Assembly: GCA_030040315.1 (NCBI GenBank)
Contig: JASHTY010000336.1
Span: 1 to 36,355 of the forward strand
Length of the DNA stretch: 36,355 nucleotides
Source: Terriglobia bacterium
GTDB taxonomy: Bacteria; Acidobacteriota; Terriglobia; UBA7540
Direction of reading: 5' to 3'
Under the pieces are notes generated by a model that was not told the origin of the DNA, ran no database searches, and was given only the letters and a program-made list of their open reading frames with translations. This document shows, one piece after another, positions 21,745 to 36,355 of this stretch. Each line of letters opens with the position of its first letter. The stretch's first letter is position 1. Both the position numbers and the translations under genes were made by a program.

Positions 21745-22911
21745 TCATTGAGGCGTGCTCTGCGCACTCTGAAGAGTCTTCTCCTTCGCGCTCATTGACA
21801 GCCTTTGGAACTCGGTCGTTTCTCGGGCGCTGGCCTGTGCGTCACCGAGTTGGCGGTAAACCTTGGCAAGCAGGTAGTGGGTTTGAGCGTCGTTGGGATC
21901 GGCTTGAGCAGCAGCGAGCAGTTCGACCTTGGCGGTCTGCTGGTCGCCGAGATTCGCGTAGCACTCGCCCAGCAAAAAATGGGGGCGTGCCACATGAGGC
22001 TGGGCGGCGCTCGCCGCCTTCAGGAATTCGATTGCCCCCGCATAATCGCGCCGGCCAACGGCAAATTCACCAAGGTACTGATTTGCGCCAAAGTCGCTGG
22101 GATTCTCCGCACGGGCCGCCAGAAATTCCTTTTCCGCCTCGTCGATCCGCTTCAGATTGCGCAGAGCGGTTCCGATGTCGTAGTGAATCCCGGGGGCATC
22201 CGGACGCTTCGCCAATGCGGCGCGATATTCTTTAAGGGACTCTTCGTTGTGGCCTTCATTGGCGTACACGTCGCCCATCAGGGCATGGATCTGGAAGGAA
22301 TCGGGGTCGAGATCGGTGAGCTTTTGCATGGTCACAATCGAGGCGTTCATGTACAGATGTGCTAATTCGTACAACGCATCCAGGTCTTTGGGGTTTTGGG
22401 CCAGCGACTGGTTGAACTGTGTGACGGCTTCGTCGGTGCGGCCGAGGGACTGCAAGGCGATGGCGTCGTAATAGTGGGTCCGGGGATGTGGCTGAGGTGT
22501 GGCAAGTTCCGCTTGAAAGCAGGCTACTGCTTTCTCAAATTGATTCAGACCGATGTAGGATACCCCCTCGTAAAAGCTGACTTGCGGGTACTGGGCCTGG
22601 GCAGCGAGGGACCGTTCAAAGACTTCAATCGACTCCGTAAATTTAAGCTCAGTCTGGTACAGAATTCCCAGTCGCTTGAGGACTTCCGGATTCTCGGGAG
22701 CAGCCATCAACGCTTGCCGGTATACTTCCTCAGCTCCCCGATAATCCTGGGCTTTCTCGAACGCCCGTGCCTGCTCCAGGAGGGCGGCGACGTCGGCGGG
22801 CACTGCGGCAAAACTTCCTCCCGTCGCCAGCAAGATGCAGCCGGCCATGACCGGGCCGAGAAATAAACACGCCCGCCAGCGCTCGATGGAAGGCATTCCC
22901 CATCCCCTCAT
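21745..22911 (-). CDS. Secreted TPR protein (third of a tandem trio)
   Basis: This is a protein-interaction scaffold of tetratricopeptide repeats with an N-terminal signal or anchor (LFLGPVMAGCILLATGGSFA). About nine or ten 34-residue repeats follow, for example DYRGAEEVYRQALMAAPENPEVLKRLGILY and NEESLKEYRAALAKRPDAPGIHYDIGTAL. It lies in the periplasm or membrane, with partner unknown. The repeat order, including a shortened repeat before LDPDS and a PGIHY repeat after it, is shared with the other three TPR proteins here. Its ATG overlaps the stop of the upstream TPR gene by 4 bp (22908-22911), so translational coupling is likely. The TPR fold itself is certain; any function beyond binding is not readable. 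Confidence 0.85.
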   Translation of the reverse strand: MRGWGMPSIERWRACLFLGPVMAGCILLATGGSFAAVPADVAALLEQARAFEKAQDYRGAEEVYRQALMAAPENPEVLKRLGILYQTELKFTESIEVFERSLAAQAQYPQVSFYEGVSYIGLNQFEKAVACFQAELATPQPHPRTHYYDAIALQSLGRTDEAVTQFNQSLAQNPKDLDALYELAHLYMNASIVTMQKLTDLDPDSFQIHALMGDVYANEGHNEESLKEYRAALAKRPDAPGIHYDIGTALRNLKRIDEAEKEFLAARAENPSDFGANQYLGEFAVGRRDYAGAIEFLKAASAAQPHVARPHFLLGECYANLGDQQTAKVELLAAAQADPNDAQTHYLLAKVYRQLGDAQASARETTEFQRLSMSAKEKTLQSAQSTPQ

Positions 22912-24104
22912 GGCTTTTCGTTTGCCTCTTTCTGCTTCCTGAGCGCGTCCTGCAATCGCGCCTGGTCCTGTTCCTGGCCCTCGCGGGTGAGTCTTTCGGA
23001 TATCCGCAGGTGCTCCTGACTCTTTTCTTTGTCCCCCAGTCGGGCGTAAAGCTCGTAAAGCTGGTAGTGTACTTCCTTATAATTCTGATCGATCTTCAAG
23101 GCATCCTGAAATGCCTGAAGTGCGGCCTGGTTATCCCCCAGGCCGCGGTACGCTTTGCCGAGCAGAAACCTCGCCCGGGCAAGTTCGGGGTACACGCTAA
23201 CGGTTATTTTGAGATGATCAATGGCCTGCTGGAATTTTTGCTCGTCCACCAGCATGTCACCCATATAGTAATTGCCCAGGGGTTGGTTCGGCTCCTCTTG
23301 CAGGGCCAAGCTGAGTTGTTCCATGGCGTGCGCGTTGTCCTTCATTTTCCAGTAAACCTGTCCCAGGCCAAGGTGAATGCCCGGGAATTCGGGATTCTTG
23401 CGTAGCAGTTCCTCATACTCCAGTATGGCATCGTCCAAACGGCCCGCGTCAGACAAGGCTTCGGCTTTCATGGCGTGTGTGAATTCCGAGTCGGGAGCCA
23501 TTTTCGTCAGCCGCTCGGCGGCGGCGTTCATGGCCGCTTTGTAATCGACCACCAGTTCATACTGTACGACCAAATCGTGAGGGTCGTCGGCCGCCAGGCC
23601 TTCGAGTTGCTGAATGGCCTCATACGATTGTCCTTTGGCGCTGAATGCCAAAGCCAGATAGTAGCGCGCCTGCCGGTCCTTAGAATTGGCGGTGAGTTCC
23701 TGGCGAGCCACTTCCACTGTTTTATCAAACAGGTTCAGCGCATAATAGGAGACCGCCAACTGGGAATTGACGCCGGGGTAGAGCGGAGCGCGGCTGAGGA
23801 TCTGGTGGAAAACCGTGATGGCTTCTTCGTGTTTGCCTTGCTCCTGGAGAACCACGCCGAGCGCTTTCAGCAGGTTCGGGTCGTCGGGGCTGGAAACGAG
23901 AATCTGGCGGTAGATTTTTTCCGCCCCGGCATGGTCGCCGTGCATTTCCAATTCCGCAGCGCGAGCAAGCGGTGGTTTGGAATCCTGAGGGAAGACCCGC
24001 GCTGCAGGAAAGGATAACATCCCAACCGCAGCCACAAGTGTCCACGCTCGCCCGACGTTGAGCGTTTTCGGGGATTTCCAGTTCAAGGGTTTGCCGGCAA
24101 CCAC
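22908..24104 (-). CDS. Secreted TPR protein (second of a tandem trio)
   Basis: This is a TPR scaffold of 398 aa with an N-terminal hydrophobic export segment (WTLVAAVGMLSFPAARVFPQ) after a basic n-region. Repeats run from about residue 45 to 370, for example GDHAGAEKIYRQILVSSPDDPNLLKALGVVL and DNQAALQAFQDALKIDQNYKEVHYQLYELY. The C-terminus is charged and rich in Gln and Lys (QDQARLQDALRKQKEANEKP), suggesting a short coiled coil. The shortened central repeat before MAPDSEF and the following PGIHLGLG repeat match its neighbours. It follows the upstream TPR gene by 9 bp and overlaps the downstream one by 4 bp, so the three form one operon. Confidence 0.85.
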   Translation of the reverse strand: MVAGKPLNWKSPKTLNVGRAWTLVAAVGMLSFPAARVFPQDSKPPLARAAELEMHGDHAGAEKIYRQILVSSPDDPNLLKALGVVLQEQGKHEEAITVFHQILSRAPLYPGVNSQLAVSYYALNLFDKTVEVARQELTANSKDRQARYYLALAFSAKGQSYEAIQQLEGLAADDPHDLVVQYELVVDYKAAMNAAAERLTKMAPDSEFTHAMKAEALSDAGRLDDAILEYEELLRKNPEFPGIHLGLGQVYWKMKDNAHAMEQLSLALQEEPNQPLGNYYMGDMLVDEQKFQQAIDHLKITVSVYPELARARFLLGKAYRGLGDNQAALQAFQDALKIDQNYKEVHYQLYELYARLGDKEKSQEHLRISERLTREGQEQDQARLQDALRKQKEANEKP

Positions 24105-24113
24105 ACCCTCTCC

Positions 24114-25295
24114 TCACTGCTTGCTGTCTTCAGCTCGCTTCCGAAGCTCCTCATCCCTTTTTGCTTTATCCGCTCTTTCCTTCGCATAAATGGCCTCGAA
24201 GGCCTGCAATTGCGCTTGGGCCTTCTCCGGCTCCTTTAGCTTTTGGTAAAGCTGCGCAAGCTGGTAATGTACGTTTTTATCGTCTGGACTCTGCGCGGCC
24301 GCCTTTTCGAGAAGTTTCACCGCTTCGTCGAGCTTGCCCTGCTGCGTATAGCATTTTGCCAGGAGAAGGTTCGCCTGCAAGAAATCAGGGTCGCTGGACA
24401 CGACCAATGTCAGGTGCGGAATGGCTTCCTGCATCCGATCGCTTTTCAGTAAAATATCCGCCAGGTAGTAATTGGCCTTAAGGTGATTCGGATCTTCCTG
24501 GAGGGCGAGCCGGAGTTCCTGCTCGCCTTCCTTGTATTCTGCCTTGTTGTAGTAGATTTCGCCGAGAGCGAAATGAATTCCCGGAAACGAAGGATTCTTC
24601 TTGAGAGCTTCCTGGTAATCAACTATGGCCTCCGAATATTTTTGCTCTTCGGCATAGCCTTCCCCTTTGAGGACAAGCATGAAGTCAGAGTCAGGATCGA
24701 CATTCCCCAACTGATTGATGGCGGCAATCGTTCTGCCTCGGAGGAACCGGATCAGCTCGAACAGCGCCCGCTGGTCCTGGGGATTCTGATCCAGCAAGAT
24801 TTCGTATTGACGCAAGGCATCGGCATAACGGCCCAGTGATCGGTAAGCCTGAGCCTCATAAAACCGGGCCCGGCGGTATTTGGGATCGGCCTCCAACTCC
24901 TTATCAAACGACAGAATCGCCTGATCGGGGTTGTTCAAGCCGAAGTAAGAAAGCCCCAAATAAAAGTTCACCTCGGGGTATTGCGGCGCACCCTGCAATA
25001 CCTTCTGGAAGGTATCGATGGATTCCTGGAGCTTCAATTCAGTCTGGTAGACTATCCCCAACCTCTTAAGAATTTCGGGTTGGTTTGGAAATTTCGACGC
25101 CGCCTCCAGATAAACTTGCTCGGCGCCAGCAAAATCCTCCGCCTTCTCCATCTCACGCGTCCGCGTGAAATAATCGTCCAGCGTTAGGGATCCCGATTGG
25201 GCTGGAAGCCAGGCACAGCATAGGAGAAGAACAAGAATGAGCAGCCAGGCTTGACGGGAGGAAGTCAAAATCATCCTCCAAGGACTGTGATGCAT
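24114..25295 (-). CDS. Secreted TPR protein (first of a tandem trio)
   Basis: This is a TPR scaffold with a signal peptide (AWLLILVLLLCCAWLPAQ) and about ten repeats, for example DFAGAEQVYLEAASKFPNQPEILKRLGIVYQTELK. That last motif is nearly identical in the protein at 21745-22911 (PEVLKRLGILYQTELK), showing recent common ancestry. A Lys/Arg/Glu-rich tail (KERADKAKRDEELRKRAEDSKQ) may form a coiled coil. The start is uncertain. ATG 25295 has only a distant GGTGG and may be leaderless (see the promoter entry). ATG 25274 has GGAGG directly abutting the codon, which is too close. It is the first gene of the trio and is divergent from the fourth TPR gene. Confidence 0.85.
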   Translation of the reverse strand: MHHSPWRMILTSSRQAWLLILVLLLCCAWLPAQSGSLTLDDYFTRTREMEKAEDFAGAEQVYLEAASKFPNQPEILKRLGIVYQTELKLQESIDTFQKVLQGAPQYPEVNFYLGLSYFGLNNPDQAILSFDKELEADPKYRRARFYEAQAYRSLGRYADALRQYEILLDQNPQDQRALFELIRFLRGRTIAAINQLGNVDPDSDFMLVLKGEGYAEEQKYSEAIVDYQEALKKNPSFPGIHFALGEIYYNKAEYKEGEQELRLALQEDPNHLKANYYLADILLKSDRMQEAIPHLTLVVSSDPDFLQANLLLAKCYTQQGKLDEAVKLLEKAAAQSPDDKNVHYQLAQLYQKLKEPEKAQAQLQAFEAIYAKERADKAKRDEELRKRAEDSKQ

Positions 25296-25301
25296 GGTGC
25301 A

Positions 25302-25330
25302 ATTTTACCACCTTGCCTGAGCCATTACAA
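25302..25330 (-). promoter_or_regulatory. Candidate promoter of the TPR trio, possibly leaderless
   Basis: On the minus strand TTGTAA (25325-25330), a 17-base spacer and TAAAAT (25302-25307) give a fair sigma70-like match. Transcription would start close to ATG 25295, leaving no leader. The -35 is a weak match, so this is tentative. Confidence 0.35.
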
Positions 25331-25390
25331 AAACCATTTAGCCTTCGCCTTCCGAACTACACGATTGACCGACAGCATGGACGGGTACTG

Positions 25391-25396
25391 TATAAT
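25391..25396 (+). promoter_or_regulatory. -10 element of the plus-strand TPR gene
   Basis: A perfect TATAAT ends 15 bases before ATG 25412, so the transcript would have a leader of only about 8-10 nt. The nearest -35-like TTGACC (25365-25370) is 20 bases away, which is longer than ideal. Confidence 0.4.
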
Positions 25397-25411
25397 TGCT
25401 GGTGACTTACC

Positions 25412-26593
25412 ATGCGCCGAGCATTGTTCTTCCTCATTTTTTTCGTCTTCATTCCGGCGGTGGCCTGCCTTGCGGCACAGGACACTACGGAGACCCAGGC
25501 CCAACAGCACTTCCAGGCAGCTCAAGCGGCGGAGAAGAAGGGTGACTATGACCAAGCTATCGCGGAATACCAGGAGATTCTCAAGCTGTACCCGCACCTC
25601 CCGGAGGTCTATAACAACCTCGGACTTGTCTATTACGTTCAGGGGAAAAACGTCGACGCCATTGCGGCGTTTCAACAGGTATTGGCAGTCAAGCCCGATG
25701 CTTTAGGTGCCAACCTCTTCCTCGGCATGGCGTACCTGCGCACCAACCAGTACGAGAAGTCTCTGGCACCGCTTCAGAAAGCGATCGACCTGAATCCCAA
25801 GGATACCCGTCCTTATCTCAACTTGGCCGTCAGCTACTCTGAACTAGGCCGGGACGGGGAGGCCGCACAAGTTCTTGAGAAAGCTGCGGAGTACTCTCCT
25901 GAAGATGCTGAAGTGCAATATCAACTTGGAAGGATTTATACGAAGTTGATGACCAATTCCTATCGAAAGATGGCGACTCTCGGCCCGGACTCCGCGCGCT
26001 ACCACCAAGTCATGGGGAACTCTTTCGAGGCGCGCCGGGACATGCCACACGCCATCCAGGAATACGAAAAAGCCGTGGCCATAGGTCCAAGCATCCCTGG
26101 CGTACACTACTCGCTGGGGAGCGCTTATTGGAAAGAGAATGAACTCGACAGGGCTGAACACGAATTCAAAGAAGAGCTTAAACTTTCTCCGGAAAATTAC
26201 CTGGCGACCTGGAAATTGGGAAACATCTACCTGATGCGCCAACAATTCGATGAAGCTCTGACCTATTTTCAGAAGGCCCTCCAGCAAAAGCCGGACCTCG
26301 GGCAGGCGCATCGCGATCTGGCCAAGCTGTATCTTCGAGTCCACAAGCCTGATTTGGCGGTGAGCCAACTAAAAATCGTCGCTGAACTTGACCCCACAGA
26401 AGCATCCGCACACTATCTGTTAGCCCAAGCCTATCGTGACCTTGGACGCGCTTCCGATCAGAAAGCGGAGGTGGCCTTGTTCGAGAAGTTGAAGAAGGAC
26501 GAAGAGGAGCGCGCGAAGCCCCCGGAATTATTGGGGACCAGCGCGGCGGACGAGCCGAACGAAGAAAAGACCGAAACCCCTCCAAAGAGGTGA
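25412..26593 (+). CDS. Secreted TPR protein, divergent fourth paralogue
   Basis: This is a TPR scaffold of 393 aa with a signal peptide (ALFFLIFFVFIPAVACLAAQ) and about ten repeats, for example DYDQAIAEYQEILKLYPHLPEVYNNLGLVYYVQGK and LDRAEHEFKEELKLSPENYLATWKLGNIYL. It keeps the layout of the minus-strand trio: a shortened central repeat before LGPDSARYH, then PGVHYSLGSAYW, and a final AHYLLAQAYRDLGR repeat. It ends in an acidic, low-complexity tail. The start is firm because the signal peptide begins at once, although only a weak GGTGA precedes it. It shares a 116 bp divergent promoter region with the trio and is convergent with the receptor gene at 26802. The partner is unknown. Confidence 0.87.
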   Translation: MRRALFFLIFFVFIPAVACLAAQDTTETQAQQHFQAAQAAEKKGDYDQAIAEYQEILKLYPHLPEVYNNLGLVYYVQGKNVDAIAAFQQVLAVKPDALGANLFLGMAYLRTNQYEKSLAPLQKAIDLNPKDTRPYLNLAVSYSELGRDGEAAQVLEKAAEYSPEDAEVQYQLGRIYTKLMTNSYRKMATLGPDSARYHQVMGNSFEARRDMPHAIQEYEKAVAIGPSIPGVHYSLGSAYWKENELDRAEHEFKEELKLSPENYLATWKLGNIYLMRQQFDEALTYFQKALQQKPDLGQAHRDLAKLYLRVHKPDLAVSQLKIVAELDPTEASAHYLLAQAYRDLGRASDQKAEVALFEKLKKDEEERAKPPELLGTSAADEPNEEKTETPPKR

Positions 26594-26801: not shown

Positions 26802-29800
26802 CTAGTACGTGATCTTCAAGCCAAACTGAATCTCCCGTGGGAAATTCTCCTGGGTTGTGATGTGGCCGAAACCGCCAAGACCGGAGGAAACCTCATTGCC
26901 CTGGAGAATCGAACCGTACTGGTCACCGCCCTGATCGAACCCGAAGACCGTCCGATTGAAGATGTTCAGGAAGTCGGTACGGAATTCGATGTTGACCCTC
27001 TCCTTGATCTGCGTTTTCTTGATGATCGAGATGTCCTCGTCAAGCCAGCCAAAGCCGCGGACGCTGCCGTCAGTGGCCGGTGCATTGCCGAGAGTCCACG
27101 GATCAAGATTGTTGGAGGAAGGATTGGTCCAAGCCGCAACGTTATTCACGGCCCCGTAGTCAACGCCGTTGACTACGCCACCATTCGGGTCCCATTTGCC
27201 TTCCCTGAACGCCTGTGACCGCTTGGGAACGCCGGGCACAATGTTGGGGCGCGTCAGAAAGCTATTGGGACCGGAATAAGGATTCAGGGGATTGTCGCCG
27301 CTGGCGATGATGCTGGGCGGGCCGCTTTGGTAAGTCTGGAACCCCGCAATTTCCCAGCCTCCAACAATCCTTCCGGCCGCGCCACCTTGATTGGCGTACC
27401 TCTTGCCAGGTCCGAAGGGCAATTGGTACTCGTACGACAGCGTCAGGGTTTGCGGATAATCGTTAAGGGCCAGCGACCTCTCTGCCTTGGCGTTATAGAA
27501 GTCCTGGGTAAAGCCGGAGAACTCATTAAATAAGCTTCCAGCATCGGTCATGGTCTTTTCCCAAGTATACGAGGCGAGGAAGGTCAGGCCTTCCGAAAAC
27601 TGCTTTCGAACCTGAACCTGCAGGGCGTTGTAGCTTGAGTTGCCAACGCCTTCGCCAAAATCCCGCATCTGGGAAAGACCCTCTGTGGTGTCAGTCGTGT
27701 ATTGTGGGAAGGGCCGCAAGGCCTGGCCAAGGGTCGCACTGCTTCCCCACACCGACTCAAACCCCTTGAAGGGGGAGTGGTTACCCGTTGTCGGATCGAT
27801 GGGCATGGCCTGCACGATGGGAAGCGCCTGCACGGCCGGGGTTCCTATCGTGCTAAAAAGGTAGTTACCCGGGGTATACGGCGACGTGCTCTGCGCATAC
27901 GTGAAGGCATTCGTGTACTCGGTCGGCATCACATTGGAATTCATCAGCCGGCTGGGAAGATGGGTTCCCTTGGTACCGACATAGGCCACGTCAACAAGAA
28001 TCTTGCCGGGAATCTCCCGCTGCACATCAAAAGTCCAATTCTGGATGGACGGAACCTTATTGTCACCAGGGAATCCTTCGAAGAACGGTCCCTGCCCCAC
28101 TTCATAGGACTGATTGATAAAGGGAGGCAACGGGAATTTGGAGGAGGGCCACCCGCTGCTGAGCTGGAAGACCGGAGTAAGGCCCGAATACCCGCTGACG
28201 ACGTTCTCAGGAAGGGCGTTGGAAGCATTGTAGCCGAGCCGGCCCGCGCCCGACGTGCCGGAAAGTGCGCGCTCAATACCGCCGGCCGTATAGAGGATTC
28301 CGTAGCCGCTCCGGATCACAGTTTTATCATTGAGCATATAGGCAAGACCGAAGCGCGGACCCAAATCCCCCAGTGACGCTGAAACCGGAGAGCGCTGGCC
28401 ACTGCTCGCAAACACCATCGCGCCCCGGATGTTGTACTGGGTATTCATCGCCGTGGGGTTCACCCAGGACAGGGCGTTGTGAGCATCCACATCCGGCCGG
28501 AAGATGTCATAGCGAAGGCCAACGTTGAGGGTCAGCTTGCGGCTGAACTTGTAATCGTCCTGGCCGAAAAAGCCGTAGTAGGCGTAGCGGTCAGCGGCAG
28601 TGACGCCCGTAATGCCCGCCGTGCCCGTACTCACGTCGCCCAACAGGAAGCCCGCCTCACCCATCCCGGTGCACTCGCCGCCGGCGGGGCACGAATCGTT
28701 GTACCACGTGGCCGGACCCGGCAAGGAGGTGGTTCCCTCATCGAAGGTTAGGAAGCTGGATTGGTAGCTGGCGGACCACGCGTTCACCTGGAATTTGGTG
28801 TAGCTCCCGCCAAATTTGAAAGAGTTCTTGCCTTTAATCCAATTCAGGTTGTCAGCAACGTTGAAAACGTTCGTCGAGCCATAACTCTGTCCCTGGGTTG
28901 CGTAGAGGTTGCCCAAGTCGCCGATACTGAGTTCAACGAAAACCGAACCGGGCCCGGTTTGAGGCACACCGTTATAACCGAGCTTCGCCGGCCATCCGGT
29001 TCCCGCCCCGGGGTAGCTCTGGGTTCCCAGGCGGTTAAATCCCACACCCAGATGATTCACCACCGCTGGACTGAAGATGAAGTCATCGCTGAAGCGCGCG
29101 ATATCCTGCTGTGTGTAACTGGTGCCGCCGTTGGTGATCGCGCCGGGCCACTTCGAGCCGGTGGGGTTGTATTCGTTGGACCAGGCGAATTCACCCATGA
29201 TGCGGTCGCGGTTGGAGATGTTATGGTCCATTTTGGCTCCCCACTCCGTGGTGTTTGTCAATGCAGTGTAGGAGGCCAGCCAGTTGTCGATGTATCCGAA
29301 TTCGGTGCCGGCACGCATGCCGCTTTGGGGAAAGTAAGTGAAGATCTTGGCCGCCAATGGGTCAATTCGGCCGGACGGAATGATGTTGGCGGAAGCAGTG
29401 GGTTTTCCCGTCATGGTGTTGTAGCCAAAGCCGTCGCGCAGGATCGCCGCAGCTCCGCTGGTGTTGGTGAGTCCGGTTTCCGGGTCGGCGGCGCCGGCAG
29501 CAACGGTCCGCGTCGTGGCCGGATCGTAGGCTTCGTTCTCATACATCGCACGGCCGATGGCATCGAAGCACTGCGAACTCCCGGTGCCGCAATCGGCAAT
29601 CGGGGTTTGACCCAGGTTGCTCAAATTACCTTGTTGCATGGACACGGTCGGAACTGTGTCTAGGGCGTTGCTCGGCTCGTTGCGAAGACGAAATGCGTGA
29701 TACCAGCCGAAGAAAAATGTCTTGTCACGGCCATTGTAGATGTGAGGAAGCACAACCGGGCCCCCCACGTTGGCGCCAAATTCGTTCTGCTTGTTCACGG

Positions 29801-30653
29801 GAGTTTTGCTGCCCACAGCCTCGCAGGCAAAGAACCCGCACGCATCCGTGGCGTTGTTGCGGACGTACTCGTAACCCTCGCCATGGATCTGGTTCGTCCC
29901 GGACTTCATGGCAAAGCTAACGACGCCCAGCGCCGTTTGACCCAGTTCCGCTTGCGGCAGCAGAGTCATTACTCTAAATTCGCCCACCGAGTCGGGAGGA
30001 AAAGGGAGATCGCCAAATTGCCCGGTCATCATGCCACCTTGGCCGATTTGCATGCCGTCCAGGAAGAATTCAACGGCGCCACTGGGGCTGCCATTGACGG
30101 TGGAGTCCAATTGCCGGCCGGAACCACTGGCCGTGGGTGTTACCGTGCCGCGGCTGACGACGCCCGGGGCGAGGTTGATGTAAAACCCAGGGTTGCGAAT
30201 TTCCGACTGCGATACGATGGGCAATTCCTCGACATCTTGTGAGGTCACCACGGTGTCCTTGGTGGAACTATCGCTGTCAAGAAGCGGCTGGGCTGTCACT
30301 TGGACGGTCTGATTTACGGATCCAAGCTGCATGTGAATATCCAAGGCCACAGTCTGTCCCACTTCCAGGACCAAGCCGCTTTGGAGATATTTTTTGAAGC
30401 CCTGCATCTCGGCCACTACGTCGTATTTGCCCAGATGCAAGAAGGGGATGGTGTATGCGCCTCCCGCGCCGGATGTGGTCTTGGTGGCAACACCAGTTTC
30501 TGTATTGGTGGCGGTCACGGTAACGCCTGCCATCACGGCTCCCGATTGGTCCAGCACGGTTCCCGTGATTGTTCCGCGATCACTTTGTGCCCAAAGCGGG
30601 CACGTAAGGGCTAAAACCACAACAATTACAAATGCAAAAGTACGCCGATTCAT
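26802..30653 (-). CDS. Second Oar-like TonB-dependent outer-membrane receptor
   Basis: This is a 1,283-aa outer-membrane receptor. A signal peptide (TFAFVIVVVLALTCPLWAQ) is followed by a carboxypeptidase-regulatory-like domain (about 25-110: GTITGTVLDQSGAVMAGVTV, YDVVAEMQGFKKYLQ). A plug domain follows (about 120-240, including SGSGRQLDSTVNGSPSGAVEFFLDGM). The long barrel contains typical Oar repeats (ALQVQVRKQFSEGLTFLASYTWEKTM, LSYEYQLPFGPGKRY) and ends FGLKITY with a terminal aromatic residue. It is only distantly similar to the receptor at 17238-20768, so the two probably recognise different ligands. Its ligand is unknown. The CRTAC1-type gene lies 256 bp upstream on the same strand, and a strong terminator lies downstream. 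The start ATG 30653 is consistent with the signal peptide, although the Shine-Dalgarno is not clear-cut. Confidence 0.93.
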   Translation of the reverse strand: MNRRTFAFVIVVVLALTCPLWAQSDRGTITGTVLDQSGAVMAGVTVTATNTETGVATKTTSGAGGAYTIPFLHLGKYDVVAEMQGFKKYLQSGLVLEVGQTVALDIHMQLGSVNQTVQVTAQPLLDSDSSTKDTVVTSQDVEELPIVSQSEIRNPGFYINLAPGVVSRGTVTPTASGSGRQLDSTVNGSPSGAVEFFLDGMQIGQGGMMTGQFGDLPFPPDSVGEFRVMTLLPQAELGQTALGVVSFAMKSGTNQIHGEGYEYVRNNATDACGFFACEAVGSKTPVNKQNEFGANVGGPVVLPHIYNGRDKTFFFGWYHAFRLRNEPSNALDTVPTVSMQQGNLSNLGQTPIADCGTGSSQCFDAIGRAMYENEAYDPATTRTVAAGAADPETGLTNTSGAAAILRDGFGYNTMTGKPTASANIIPSGRIDPLAAKIFTYFPQSGMRAGTEFGYIDNWLASYTALTNTTEWGAKMDHNISNRDRIMGEFAWSNEYNPTGSKWPGAITNGGTSYTQQDIARFSDDFIFSPAVVNHLGVGFNRLGTQSYPGAGTGWPAKLGYNGVPQTGPGSVFVELSIGDLGNLYATQGQSYGSTNVFNVADNLNWIKGKNSFKFGGSYTKFQVNAWSASYQSSFLTFDEGTTSLPGPATWYNDSCPAGGECTGMGEAGFLLGDVSTGTAGITGVTAADRYAYYGFFGQDDYKFSRKLTLNVGLRYDIFRPDVDAHNALSWVNPTAMNTQYNIRGAMVFASSGQRSPVSASLGDLGPRFGLAYMLNDKTVIRSGYGILYTAGGIERALSGTSGAGRLGYNASNALPENVVSGYSGLTPVFQLSSGWPSSKFPLPPFINQSYEVGQGPFFEGFPGDNKVPSIQNWTFDVQREIPGKILVDVAYVGTKGTHLPSRLMNSNVMPTEYTNAFTYAQSTSPYTPGNYLFSTIGTPAVQALPIVQAMPIDPTTGNHSPFKGFESVWGSSATLGQALRPFPQYTTDTTEGLSQMRDFGEGVGNSSYNALQVQVRKQFSEGLTFLASYTWEKTMTDAGSLFNEFSGFTQDFYNAKAERSLALNDYPQTLTLSYEYQLPFGPGKRYANQGGAAGRIVGGWEIAGFQTYQSGPPSIIASGDNPLNPYSGPNSFLTRPNIVPGVPKRSQAFREGKWDPNGGVVNGVDYGAVNNVAAWTNPSSNNLDPWTLGNAPATDGSVRGFGWLDEDISIIKKTQIKERVNIEFRTDFLNIFNRTVFGFDQGGDQYGSILQGNEVSSGLGGFGHITTQENFPREIQFGLKITY

Positions 30654-30909: not shown

Positions 30910-32721
30910 TCAATGAGGGTTTTGCCGTTCGAGAGCGGGCATTGATGGATTCCGGTGGATAAGCGGATCCGGTTCGAGCCAGTTTCCCTCGCGGGCAAGA
31001 TAAAAGTTGTTTACGGGCACATTGCGATATCGATCAATTTGGCCGCTGCTCCAGCGAATTTCCACTTGGTCGGCCTGCCGCAAGTCGCCCATTCCCACAT
31101 GGACCCTTAAGTCATTGCCAGAAAGGAAGCTTTCGCTGCTTCTCACCTCGAAAATACGGCGCGCAGAGCCCGTAGTAACCGTTATCCGCGCGCCGATGCC
31201 GCTCCGATTGCTCTTGACGCCTTCGGTTCTGATCATTAGCCAGTTCTTTCGATTCCCTCCGTCGTTCCGCAGAAGCAAGGGGACGTTGTTTTTGTTGATC
31301 ACCAGGACGTCGATGTCGCCGTCGTTGTCGATATCCGCAAACGCCGCCCCTCGACCTGAATACTTGGGCAATTTCCTGAGCCCCGCGGCATCGGAAACAT
31401 CTTCGAATCTCTTACCTTGAATGTTCCGTAACATGTAGTTTGGCTCTGCGAAGCTCTCCTCGGGGTAGACTTTTTCAACCTGCTCGTTGGTATGGCCAAA
31501 GGTAATCCACAAGTCCAGCCAGCCGTCGTTATCAAAATCGAAGAATTTTGTCCCCCAGGCGCAATAATCATATCCGAGGTGGGACAGCCCGGCAGCCTCG
31601 GTAGTATCTTCAAATACGTGGCCGCCGCGGTTGGCGTACAAAGTGTTGCCCTGGCGAATCCAATTGGCAACAAACACGTCTAATAAGCCGTCGTTATTGT
31701 AGTCGCCAACTGTCACACCCATCGTCCCGTGATTGTTCCCGGAACCATCCACGGCAAGGCCCGAATCGAAGCTCGCATCCTTGAAGGTGCCGTCCCCGTT
31801 GTTGATGTAAAAGAAATTCGGTCCGACATCGTTGACCTGGTAAATGTCCTGCAATCCCCGATTGTCAAAGTCGCTGAAAACAACCCCGAATCCCCGGCCT
31901 GTCTCCTTGCGAATCAATCCTGCTTTCTGCGTAACGTCGGTGAATGTTCCATCGTGGTTGTTGTGATACAAGGTAGCCTGCTCGCCCTCATAAACATCCG
32001 GCGGGCACGCTATAGGAACCGTCTTGAATATGCAGGGATGCGGCTCATTGGGACGCGGACCGGGATGCAGTGGATCCATCTTGACGAAATTGGTCACATA
32101 CAGATCCAAATAGCCGTCGTTGTCATAATCACCGAATGCTGCGCCCATGCTCCACTTCGGGATATCCCATTTCGGGCCGGCCACTCCGGCCTTGTCCGTG
32201 ACATCCGTAAACGTGCCGTCGCCGTTGTTCCGGTATAGCTTATTCGGGCCCAAGCCGGTCACATAGAGATCAGGGTGACCATCGTTGTCGTAGTCGCCGA
32301 CCGCACAGCCACTATGCCAGCCCGACGCCCCTAAATGTGCTTGCCGGGTTACGTTCGTGAATGTCCCGTCACCGTTATTCCGCAGAAGGTAATCGTGCGG
32401 TGGAGTCCCCGCCGCCTCCAACTTTCTTGACGAACCATTGACCAGATAAATATCCTGGTAGCCGTCTTGGTTGTAGTCGAAAAAACAGGCTCCCTCTCCG
32501 TTCACCTCAGTGAGGTAATCGCTTGCCTCATCGCCGCAAATAATCTTCATGGTAAGGCCGGCTTGGCGCGTGATGTCCGTAAACGTGGGCAAAGGAATCG
32601 CGCCCGAGTCGAAGGCCTTTTCCTGGGAATTCGCAGGCATGCGGGCTTGGAGGGTGATGAACGCGATGGCCGCGAGCATGCATCCCCAGATAATCGATAG
32701 CCGTTTGTTACCGGTCTGCAT
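30910..32721 (-). CDS. CRTAC1-type FG-GAP/ASPIC-UnbV secreted protein
   Basis: This is an exported beta-propeller protein. An N-terminal hydrophobic segment (LSIIWGCMLAAIAFITLQA) is followed by seven FG-GAP/VCBS repeats with calcium-binding DxDxDGxxD loops: FDYNQDGYQDIYLV, GDYDNDGHPDLYV, GDYDNDGYLDLYV, SDFDNRGLQDIYQV, GDYNNDGLLDVFV, FDFDNDGWLDLWI and ADIDNDGDIDVLV. The fourth loop has Arg in place of Asp. The C-terminus (about 500-580: SARRIFEVRSSESFLSGNDLRVHVGMG, VEIRWSSGQIDRY) is the UnbV/ASPIC domain. The family's biochemical role is not established; in Acidobacteriota such genes often sit near TonB receptors and TPR genes, as here. The ORF track begins at TTG 32724; I prefer ATG 32721, the next codon. 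It lies 202 bp downstream of the GH127-like gene. Confidence 0.9.
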   Translation of the reverse strand: MQTGNKRLSIIWGCMLAAIAFITLQARMPANSQEKAFDSGAIPLPTFTDITRQAGLTMKIICGDEASDYLTEVNGEGACFFDYNQDGYQDIYLVNGSSRKLEAAGTPPHDYLLRNNGDGTFTNVTRQAHLGASGWHSGCAVGDYDNDGHPDLYVTGLGPNKLYRNNGDGTFTDVTDKAGVAGPKWDIPKWSMGAAFGDYDNDGYLDLYVTNFVKMDPLHPGPRPNEPHPCIFKTVPIACPPDVYEGEQATLYHNNHDGTFTDVTQKAGLIRKETGRGFGVVFSDFDNRGLQDIYQVNDVGPNFFYINNGDGTFKDASFDSGLAVDGSGNNHGTMGVTVGDYNNDGLLDVFVANWIRQGNTLYANRGGHVFEDTTEAAGLSHLGYDYCAWGTKFFDFDNDGWLDLWITFGHTNEQVEKVYPEESFAEPNYMLRNIQGKRFEDVSDAAGLRKLPKYSGRGAAFADIDNDGDIDVLVINKNNVPLLLRNDGGNRKNWLMIRTEGVKSNRSGIGARITVTTGSARRIFEVRSSESFLSGNDLRVHVGMGDLRQADQVEIRWSSGQIDRYRNVPVNNFYLAREGNWLEPDPLIHRNPSMPALERQNPH

Positions 32722-32923
32722 CAAAACCCGTAGATTGGAGGCTCAAAGATCCACGTCAGTATAGCCCAAGCGTCGGAGGTCGGAGGTGTGGCCTGCGAGG
32801 TTTCAGATCAGTGATGACGTAGCTTCAGGCGTGTCGCCAGCGACCAGCGAAAACGCGTGCATTACGGATGCCGCCGGGAATTCCTCTCGGTTTCAATAAA
32901 GCTCTTGGGGAACTGACCTGCAC

Positions 32924-34957
32924 TTACCATTCAATGGGCTCGTCGGGCACGAAGCGCTCAATTTCGCGGAACGGGGTATTTGAAGCAAGATAATGGCTGC
33001 GTTGATAGAGTGGCCCATTCTCTCCGCCCGGGCTCACACCGATGACCGTGTTGCCTTTGATATCCAGAGTGTACGGGAAATTGCCGATCGTCTCTTTTGT
33101 CCTGTGCCGCGAAATTGGAAATGCTACTGCAACCAGTTCGCCCGGTGCGGCGCTGCCCAAATTGAGGTAGCGGCCCTCCCATCGGAAGCTCCGCTGCTTC
33201 CCATTGGTCATGCCAACGACTTCAGAGCTGTTCGCAGGAATCCACTCCGGCACGCGCAGGCGGACAACGCTGAGCGGCTTTTTCACTTTTAGCTCCACCT
33301 TCCCTTCATACGGAATATAGCTGCAAACGTCTGCCCACTCGGAGGCACGGTTCAGAAGCAGGTTTACACGCAGGCCGCCTTCTTCATAGGCAAGCATGTG
33401 CTCCCACAGGTAGTACATCGTTCGCGCGGAGTTGCCGGTGCAGCAGTGCTGGATGGAGTGCGGATGATTGGGCGCCTCGACGCCGAAATCATTGCCCGTG
33501 GACCAGCCCGCGAAGGCGCCGACGCTGCGCTCGGGAACGTGGTCCGCCGTTTCATTCCACGCCACTGGCTTATGGGGGTAGCGTTCGGCCTGGCGATAAA
33601 CCCATTCCGCGCTGGTAAGCTGTGATTCGGCAAAGTGATTGCGCGTCCAGCGATCGGCGTCATCCCAATAGTCAGCCACGCCCGCGGAGCTTAGCTTGAG
33701 GGCCATCGCCAGCATGTCGGCAATCGTATCCGTTTCACACCGGTCGTACCGCGGCAGAAACCATTCCGGAAAAAATCCCGTCAGCGCGCAACTGTAATTC
33801 GACTTCGCCCACTCGTATGAAGCCCTGACGAATTCAATTGTCTCCTTGTCCCGGGCGGCGAGGCCGTATTCGAGCAACGACAATAAGCCGATGCAGTGGC
33901 TGTGCCCGTGGCCGCCATTAACGAGCGACTCGACGTTCCAGCTCTTCACCCACTGTTTCTCCATGGGACTGAAGAGCCAGGCACCGTCTGCCTGATAATA
34001 CTGAGCCTGGTGGCGAACGTAGTGCGCCAGCTTTCCGGCGAGGCGGAGGGCGGGCTCGTATCCGGTCGCGCGATAGTACTGGCTAAGCCCTTGAACGATG
34101 CGGCCGCTATTCTCCTCCGCCATAACACCCGTCGGCATGGGGGCATTGCGCCCAAACTTCCCGTTGGGAATCAAGCTGCCGTCAGGAAAATAGGCGAAAT
34201 CACCGCGGTCGACCGCAAGCTGGCTCAGGCGGTCGATCATCTTTTCGGCGGCGGACTTCCACAGGGGGTTCTTGTCCCGGAGGTAATAAACCGTGAGCGT
34301 GGAGATCGCCCTTTGGCATGACATGGGGTTCCCAATGTGCGCGACCGCGGGGTCGTTGATGGCAATCGTCTCCCCATCGGGAGCCCAACAGGGCCGGGCG
34401 TAGGTGATGGCGACGCTGACCGAGCTCCAGGGCCGGCCACCGAAAGGCACGTAGACCAATCCATCCGGCCCGATCATCTTCAACAGGACGCGCGTCCAGG
34501 TTGGATCCACCTGGTTGTTCTGAGTGCTTCCGGTGGCGATGCGGAGAAGTGGCAGCGCCTCCATCATGCCTTCGACGTTTTGAACCCAGTCGTTGAAGTT
34601 GTGCTCCATCACCGGAGGGTTCCGGTAGAACGTCGCCAGCCAATACACTTCCTCGTCGGCGTTGCTGTCAGTAATCGACGTCAGAGCATTGATGCAGAGC
34701 TTCGCGCGCTCGGCAACGTCCAGTGTGTCCGGAACTGCGTCGACATACCGCTGGCCACGTGCGGGTAGAGTTTCAAAGTGTGGAACATTCTCCCGAATAT
34801 ATTGAACATTGAGCTTTCCCGGTGGCAGGGAGTGCGGAACATTGAATGATGCAGAAAAGCCGGAGGGCGAAAGCAACAGGTCATGGTCTTGATCATCGGC
34901 CAGCAAAGTGCTGCTCATCGCGAGCAGTGACGTTTTTACAAAATCACGCCGGTCCAT
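32924..34957 (-). CDS. Tat-exported GH127/DUF1680-clan glycosidase-like protein
   Basis: This is a probable exported glycosidase of the (alpha/alpha)6-barrel clan that includes GH127 beta-L-arabinofuranosidases. The N-terminus is a short twin-arginine signal (MDRRDFVKTSLLAMS). The barrel spans about 80-530 and contains GHGHSHCIG (350-358), RCETDTIADMLAMALKLS (406-423) and HCCTGNSARTMYYLWEH (Cys505-Cys506). A C-terminal beta domain follows (VNLLLNRASEWADVCSYIPYEG, LRVPEWI). In characterised GH127 enzymes a Cys-Cys pair near this position binds zinc and supplies the nucleophile. The second region has Cys before Glu, unlike the usual Glu-x-Cys order, so activity and substrate are unsure. It lies between the fusion gene (about 120 bp upstream) and the CRTAC1-type gene. 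Confidence 0.8.
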   Translation of the reverse strand: MDRRDFVKTSLLAMSSTLLADDQDHDLLLSPSGFSASFNVPHSLPPGKLNVQYIRENVPHFETLPARGQRYVDAVPDTLDVAERAKLCINALTSITDSNADEEVYWLATFYRNPPVMEHNFNDWVQNVEGMMEALPLLRIATGSTQNNQVDPTWTRVLLKMIGPDGLVYVPFGGRPWSSVSVAITYARPCWAPDGETIAINDPAVAHIGNPMSCQRAISTLTVYYLRDKNPLWKSAAEKMIDRLSQLAVDRGDFAYFPDGSLIPNGKFGRNAPMPTGVMAEENSGRIVQGLSQYYRATGYEPALRLAGKLAHYVRHQAQYYQADGAWLFSPMEKQWVKSWNVESLVNGGHGHSHCIGLLSLLEYGLAARDKETIEFVRASYEWAKSNYSCALTGFFPEWFLPRYDRCETDTIADMLAMALKLSSAGVADYWDDADRWTRNHFAESQLTSAEWVYRQAERYPHKPVAWNETADHVPERSVGAFAGWSTGNDFGVEAPNHPHSIQHCCTGNSARTMYYLWEHMLAYEEGGLRVNLLLNRASEWADVCSYIPYEGKVELKVKKPLSVVRLRVPEWIPANSSEVVGMTNGKQRSFRWEGRYLNLGSAAPGELVAVAFPISRHRTKETIGNFPYTLDIKGNTVIGVSPGGENGPLYQRSHYLASNTPFREIERFVPDEPIEW

Positions 34958-35078
34958 TTAAGTTGATCCACAGAATGTTCAGTACTTGCCCTGGGGCGGG
35001 CATTCGTCCTGTCCGCATTTTGGAAGGATTTGTAATCTCGTTTGAGGTCTTCGGCATTGAAGGCCGTCAAGCGCTTCT

Positions 35079-36355
35079 TCAAGGTTCTGTTTTTCTGCGC
35101 ATCAGAGCAGCCCACGCCGGGGGCCCCGCCGCTCCCTGCCGGTTTGATTCCAGCCTGTATTCTCGCAGCCATTCTAGGTTAAAGAGCGGAAGGAAGTCAA
35201 AGTTCAGCTCTTCTTCCGTAACTCCCGTGGAACCATCTTCGGCGGGATGCGAGCCTCGCTTGGAAGCGAGCAGCAGAAGCTGCGTGCCCGGGTGCGAATA
35301 GCGCCGGATGGTTTCGAGGTAGGCGGACAAATTCTGATCGCGCACCACGTGGTAGCAGCCGCGATCATAGATGAAGTCAAAAGGTTCCAATGCGGGAGGC
35401 GCCAGCACATCCGCAAGGACCCATCGCACCGACGCGCCGGCTTTCTGAGCTTTTTCCTTGGCTTGCCCAAGCGCGGTCGGTGCCACGTCCATCGCCGTGA
35501 CATCGAATCCCTTACTCGCCAGATAAATCGCGTCGTTGCCGCTTCCACAGCAAAGATCGATTGCGCGGCATCGGCGGACTTCGCCGGAATCGACGACCCG
35601 GATTAGTTCATCGGCGGCATGGCCAATATCCCAAATGGGAGGGTGTGCGGCGCGGTAGTCTGAATCCCATAAATCGAGCAGGCGGCCGCCTTCCGGCCCG
35701 TGCGGCAGGATGCCACTCGCCAGCGGCCGGTCAGGGGTTAGAACTTTCCCGCTGCGGTCGTCGATGGCAACATTGCCGGAGCCTTCAGCCAAGGGGGGAA
35801 GGGTCAGATGAAAGACCTGGTCGCCCGCTGCCACCGTCAACTTCCATCGTCCGCCATCATGAGCCATTTCTGATTGCAAAATCGGCCCTTGGTCGCCCAA
35901 ACGGTGAATGTGAAACACTGAGAGAAACCGGCCCTGACTGGAACTTGCCGGTGCAACGGTTGCAAGAATATAAGTCGATGCCTTCGCACCGCCCGCTGCG
36001 CGATCTTCACTCTGGTAAGTAAAATTTTGAGGAAGCACGGACTGCCAGGAAATCGCGCGGTCTCCCGAGATCGTTTCCACGGTGTGCCCTTTGATGGCAA
36101 TCCGATCATGGCTGTAGACCAGCCACTTTCGACGGGATGAGGAGGGGCCGGCCGCCTGATCGTCGATGATGAAGGTGGCGGGACGTAAGACGATTACACG
36201 CCGTATGAGTTTCGTGCCCAATCCATCATCCGGATGATCGTGTTGCTCGTTACCACACGATGTGGCATTCCCAACAGCGGAAATGAAGAATCGATTCTCT
36301 TCAAACGCCGTCACACCATCCCTCGGCGAACCTGAAAAGAATTGTTTAAGCATGA
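35079..36355 (-). CDS. Heparinase II/III-like domain fused to a SAM methyltransferase (5' partial)
   Basis: The frame stays open to the window edge, so the N-terminus is missing; the ORF-track ATG at 36353 is probably internal. Residues 1 to about 220 look like the C-terminal beta-sandwich of heparinase II/III-type lyases (RRVIVLRPATFIIDDQ, KWLVYSHDRIAIKGHTVET). Residues about 225-424 form a complete class I methyltransferase of the thiopurine-methyltransferase-like group: LWDSDYRAAHPPIWDIG, SAM loop AIDLCCGSGNDAIYLA (264-279), VTAMDVAPTAL, and FDFIYDRGCYHVVR. The two parts are joined in one frame with no stop. Such a fusion is not known to me. A polysaccharide lyase acts outside the cytoplasm whereas SAM is cytoplasmic, so the arrangement is puzzling. 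Sequence error, or two genes joined by loss of a stop, are alternatives. Confidence 0.75.
   Translation of the reverse strand, partial: MLKQFFSGSPRDGVTAFEENRFFISAVGNATSCGNEQHDHPDDGLGTKLIRRVIVLRPATFIIDDQAAGPSSSRRKWLVYSHDRIAIKGHTVETISGDRAISWQSVLPQNFTYQSEDRAAGGAKASTYILATVAPASSSQGRFLSVFHIHRLGDQGPILQSEMAHDGGRWKLTVAAGDQVFHLTLPPLAEGSGNVAIDDRSGKVLTPDRPLASGILPHGPEGGRLLDLWDSDYRAAHPPIWDIGHAADELIRVVDSGEVRRCRAIDLCCGSGNDAIYLASKGFDVTAMDVAPTALGQAKEKAQKAGASVRWVLADVLAPPALEPFDFIYDRGCYHVVRDQNLSAYLETIRRYSHPGTQLLLLASKRGSHPAEDGSTGVTEEELNFDFLPLFNLEWLREYRLESNRQGAAGPPAWAALMRRKTEP

Follow-up and report, generated by a model that had tools for sequence, protein, structure and literature searches.

The window, a stretch of 36,355 nucleotides, constitutes the entire contig C505. 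This contig belongs to a metagenome-assembled genome of the Acidobacteriota that is 73% complete and 5.4 Mb in size. At its end lies a fusion gene (35079–36353, minus strand), read as a single uninterrupted frame of 424 codons and a stop running from 36353 to 35079, and truncated on its 5' side by the end of the contig. It corresponds to residues 60–486 of a complete, 486-aa copy found on contig C248 of the same genome (L003:12-1472, minus strand) with 92% nucleotide identity, in which a leader (MKKLCKLLLLAFVLVSAVALNSQ) is followed by a short linker, a beta-sandwich and a methyltransferase. Downstream of the fusion and on the same strand are successively a 677-aa exported-looking protein with a twin-arginine-like MDRRDFVKT leader (32924–34957), an FG-GAP/ASPIC-UnbV repeat protein (30910–32724) and a TonB-dependent outer-membrane receptor with a carboxypeptidase-regulatory domain (26802–30653). 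Four TPR proteins, three on the minus and one on the plus strand, occupy positions 21745–26593, the gene at 24114–25295 being assigned by Pfam and the other three by sequence resemblance. The 677-aa protein had no match in Pfam, NCBIfam or PDB sequences and possibly represents a new glycosidase-like family; genomes G003, G006 and G008 also have a similar gene directly after the fusion. FG-GAP/ASPIC-UnbV proteins also occur near the fusion elsewhere, TPR proteins lie beside or near it in several other genomes, and a GH28 glycosidase adjoins it in G011, with a similar gene in G027. The fusion neighbourhood is thus composed of exported or envelope carbohydrate-use genes (TonB receptor, TPR, ASPIC/UnbV, GH28).

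Positions 1–1297 of C248 align end to end with positions 35068–36355 of the window at 92% identity. Because of this clean dovetail, and since no near-identical (~90%) second copy was found in the genome for the searched C505 and C248 stretches beyond the overlap, the simplest reading is that C248 is probably the continuation of the window locus, from a related strain; the alternative is that the C505 and C248 copies are two tandem paralogues. Immediately upstream of the complete fusion gene, C248 carries two FG-GAP/ASPIC-like repeat proteins in tandem (L003:1525-5096, minus strand), the first of which matches part of contig C105 in this genome at 76% DNA identity. Beyond them comes a protein bearing two class II aldolase (Aldolase_II) stretches (L003:5334-6626, plus strand), adjoined by an FGGY carbohydrate kinase (L003:6642-7964, minus strand).

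A lyase-type sandwich joined to a class I methyltransferase

The first part of the window frame (35712–36353, minus strand) is a heparinase II/III-type C-terminal beta-sandwich, as indicated by profile searches against the PDB and genomes and by a structure model compared with Foldseek. This N-domain (residues 1–214 of the window frame) had no Pfam match, PF07940 (Hepar_II_III_C) remaining below threshold. Its profile reached heparinase II at E = 0.003 among PDB sequences, followed by PL35-type enzymes, with a similarity that is weak in sequence and located on heparinase II residues 520–594, and it also reached Hepar_II_III_C proteins of related genomes. All strong profile matches in the class-wide and phylum-wide genome samples were fusions, and the weak ones were mostly long proteins, five of the seven scanned carrying Hepar_II_III_C. 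The domain was modelled separately, the Foldseek matches of the full-length model being dominated by the methyltransferase, and was predicted to fold alone with a mean pLDDT of 83.7 and a pTM of 0.85. All PDB matches of this model (25/25; Foldseek, E <= 0.001) were lyase-type sandwich proteins of the heparinase/alginate/GAG group, from families PL15, PL39, PL21, PL12, PL17, PL35 and PL33, or dermatan sulfate epimerase 1. The antiparallel beta-sandwich characteristic of heparinase II/III-like lyases is therefore present in the N-domain.

The second part (35082–35711, minus strand) is a class I SAM-dependent methyltransferase domain bearing the motifs DLCCGSGNDAIYLA, VTAMDVAPTAL, ADVLAPP and FDFIYDRGCYH. 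Residues 227–398 of the window frame match class I families including Methyltransf_25 (8.7e-16; 58.8 bits for a curated cut-off of 27), TehB and TPMT, with scores below the TehB equivalog cut-offs (41.5 vs 219.5 bits for TIGR00477; 46.5 vs 303 bits for PRK12335), and PHROGs returned generic methyltransferase-like families, nothing more specific. The structure model displays a Rossmann-like fold matching 6mro (TM 0.91 by target), 4nec, 7bgg and TehB; 8GDU and halide/thiol methyltransferases are further matches of this half. In this domain the complete copy shares 57–79% identity with members from other genomes; SAM motif I (DLCCGSG.DA) and the beta-2 Asp are invariant or nearly so, and FDFIYDRGCYH is largely kept in the alignment. 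The domain looks intact, and SAM binding and methyl transfer are predicted from motifs and model.

The profile matches, the structure model and the Methyltransf_25 match thus bear out the original prediction of a heparinase II/III-type sandwich and a class I methyltransferase joined in one frame. The pairing had been described as unusual, and both domains are indeed of known kinds while neither Pfam nor NCBIfam yielded a family uniting them, and the fusion itself is not a named family there either; the systematic search covered the Acidobacteriota. Homologues with the same two-domain layout, which the prediction had proposed to look for, exist as full-length, stop-free fusions in 13 Acidobacteriota genomes besides that of the window. 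Alignments place the junction (35670–35740, minus strand) within a conserved motif, RPL.SGILPHGPEG, in which L, P, H and one following G never vary across the 15 sequences aligned. The in-frame fusion is genuine, and at least 14 genomes of soil Acidobacteriota retain it.

Two readings of the gene are decided by these results. The union of two separate genes by an assembly error, a missed stop or a frameshift could be suspected from the position of the window copy at a contig end and from the origin of the genome's two copies on two contigs. Since the same junction, with its invariant LPH motif, recurs without stops in 14 genomes, a local frameshift or missed stop is untenable, and we reject the chimera as practically refuted by its homologues, its probability being negligible. 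A bifunctional lyase-methyltransferase, as initially proposed, draws on the genuine lyase origin of the sandwich seen by profile and Foldseek. The C248 copy supplies a signal-peptide-like leader, but the alpha-toroid that was to be looked for upstream is absent from this copy and from every N-terminally complete homologue, in which only the leader and a short linker precede the sandwich. The catalytic triplet of these lyases consists of Tyr, His and Asn or equivalents, of which Asn and Tyr sit in the toroid (GAGase II numbering; PMC12088678). No conserved His column was found in the sandwich across 15 aligned sequences, which leaves this region devoid of lyase catalytic residues and the C248 copy devoid of the triplet. 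With the toroid missing and no sandwich His conserved, lyase activity is therefore not expected; this reading was rejected and we regard it as very improbable. The sandwich, derived from a heparinase/alginate-type lyase, is predicted to be non-catalytic and probably serves as a binding or scaffold module.

Distribution, descent and selection

The samples searched comprised 399 genomes class-wide and 396 genomes phylum-wide, and yielded just these fusions, in a patchy distribution; a single scan of all GTDB contigs relied on short exact patterns taken from one protein. Ten of the carrier genomes belong to the family of the window's genome (G001, G003, G006, G008, G011, G014, G016, G021, G023 and G027), two to one genus of another family in the same class (G085 and G105), and one, G567, to another class, where it is the sole carrier among 38 genomes. 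Assemblies of 'Terriglobia bacterium' and of 'Acidobacteria bacterium isolate gp13' supplied the named relatives, and the 11 aligned members from other genomes share 41–54% identity with the complete copy. In plasmid records no single match spanned 80% of the query; those listed concern the methyltransferase part alone.

The methyltransferase domains of all the fusions cluster in a single clade, separate from the sampled stand-alone relatives (support 84/96; 86% of bootstrap trees), which is consistent with a single fusion event having probably given rise to the family. In the tree, G567 groups with G085 and G105, nested within the range of sequences from the window's family, a placement that suggests horizontal transfer of the fusion. 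Across six pairs, one of them (L012/L015) with saturated synonymous sites, dN/dS reached 0.07–0.12 in the methyltransferase, 0.13–0.50 in the sandwich and 0.36–0.62 in the leader and linker. These ratios designate the methyltransferase as the constrained working part, under strong purifying selection, and the sandwich as a part that is kept but drifts faster.

Export and putative function

Each of the 13 members whose N-terminus is complete, a count that omits the window copy and L006, both cut by contig ends, carries a 15-residue core with a mean Kyte-Doolittle hydrophobicity of 1.7–2.9 preceded by one to five Lys/Arg, the start being uncertain in several genomes (GTG/TTG or otherwise). On this heuristic of hydrophobicity and charge, as distinct from a trained predictor, the fusion protein is apparently exported or anchored in the envelope, and the cytoplasmic location suggested for a lyase-methyltransferase becomes unlikely. 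An AxA-like site often comes after the core; several leaders end in signal-peptidase-like sequences (SASAQ in L010, AHAKG in L012, AHATG in L013) and that of L079 has a lipobox-like LSSC, while L009 and L011 have no obvious AxA cleavage site. Twin-arginine motifs are visible in just ~3 of the 13 leaders; this route could permit the export of a folded, SAM-loaded protein.

We propose, with about even confidence, an exported or envelope-anchored small-molecule methyltransferase equipped with a non-catalytic lyase-derived sandwich. A signal peptide or uncleaved anchor would take the protein across the inner membrane, the toroid-less sandwich would bind or present carbohydrate as a binding or scaffold module, and the methyltransferase, of the TehB/TPMT/thiol-halide/heterocyclic-toxin type, would act on a small acceptor in the envelope. 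Candidate acceptors include a sugar, a uronate or an S/N-nucleophile, the protein offering no residue-level pointers to a particular one. The main difficulty of the export reading is the supply of SAM outside the cytoplasm: we know of no established availability of SAM in the periplasm, nor, to our knowledge, does established SAM metabolism make provision for a methyl donor in the envelope. Our literature search found no description of exported or periplasmic methyltransferases or of heparinase-methyltransferase fusions.

Two other readings would lift this difficulty. The hydrophobic segment could be a membrane anchor that leaves the methyltransferase facing the cytoplasm, where ordinary SAM is available, with the sandwich as a membrane-proximal spacer, and the leaders devoid of an obvious AxA site would suit such an arrangement. 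Yet the basic residues before the core place the C-terminus outside by the positive-inside rule, the sandwich comes from a family of mostly exported enzymes, and several leaders end in signal-peptidase-like sequences, with a lipobox-like one in L079, so that we consider this topology unlikely. The methyltransferase domain could otherwise be a non-catalytic binding fold within an exported carbohydrate-binding protein, which would presumably remove the SAM-supply problem altogether; this is doubtful, as it is the half of the protein that evolves slowest (dN/dS ~0.1), and its SAM motif I, beta-2 Asp and DRGCYH are invariant or nearly so.

A more specific form of the proposed export reading, in which an active SAM-dependent methyltransferase outside the cytoplasm is guided by a lyase-derived, sugar-binding sandwich to methylate carbohydrate-linked molecules, is tentative and rather improbable in our estimation; if true, it would imply a SAM source in the envelope of Acidobacteriota. 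More generally, if the methyltransferase works in the compartment to which its leader would send it, the bacterial envelope would have to contain SAM or some other methyl donor, and the conserved family with its defined boundaries makes this question directly testable. The family also illustrates how a polysaccharide-lyase sandwich has apparently been recruited as a non-catalytic module.

Compared with known systems, the fusion shares with heparinase II/III-type lyases (PL12, PL15, PL17, PL21, PL35, PL39; PF07940) the beta-sandwich fold and a weak sequence similarity, but differs from them by the absence of the toroid and of the catalytic Tyr, Asn and His, by a sequence below Pfam detection and by its union with a methyltransferase. 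With small class I methyltransferases, namely 6MRO/8GDU of M. acetivorans, Ecm18 (4NEC), Rv0560c (7BGG), TehB and the thiol/halide methyltransferases, it shares the whole fold and the SAM motifs, at no more than 31% identity in the structural matches; whereas those enzymes stand alone, ~275 residues of leader and sandwich precede the domain in the fusion. Exported-looking methyltransferases also seem recurrent in the window's genome, where at least three class I methyltransferases with leader-like N-termini (L102, L108 and L109) were among the best Methyltransf_25 matches. A leader on a methyltransferase is consequently not unique to the fusion family, because these three carry one too; they resemble the fusion in the hydrophobic leader placed before a class I methyltransferase, and differ from it by belonging, on sequence, to other methyltransferase subfamilies and by having no lyase sandwich.
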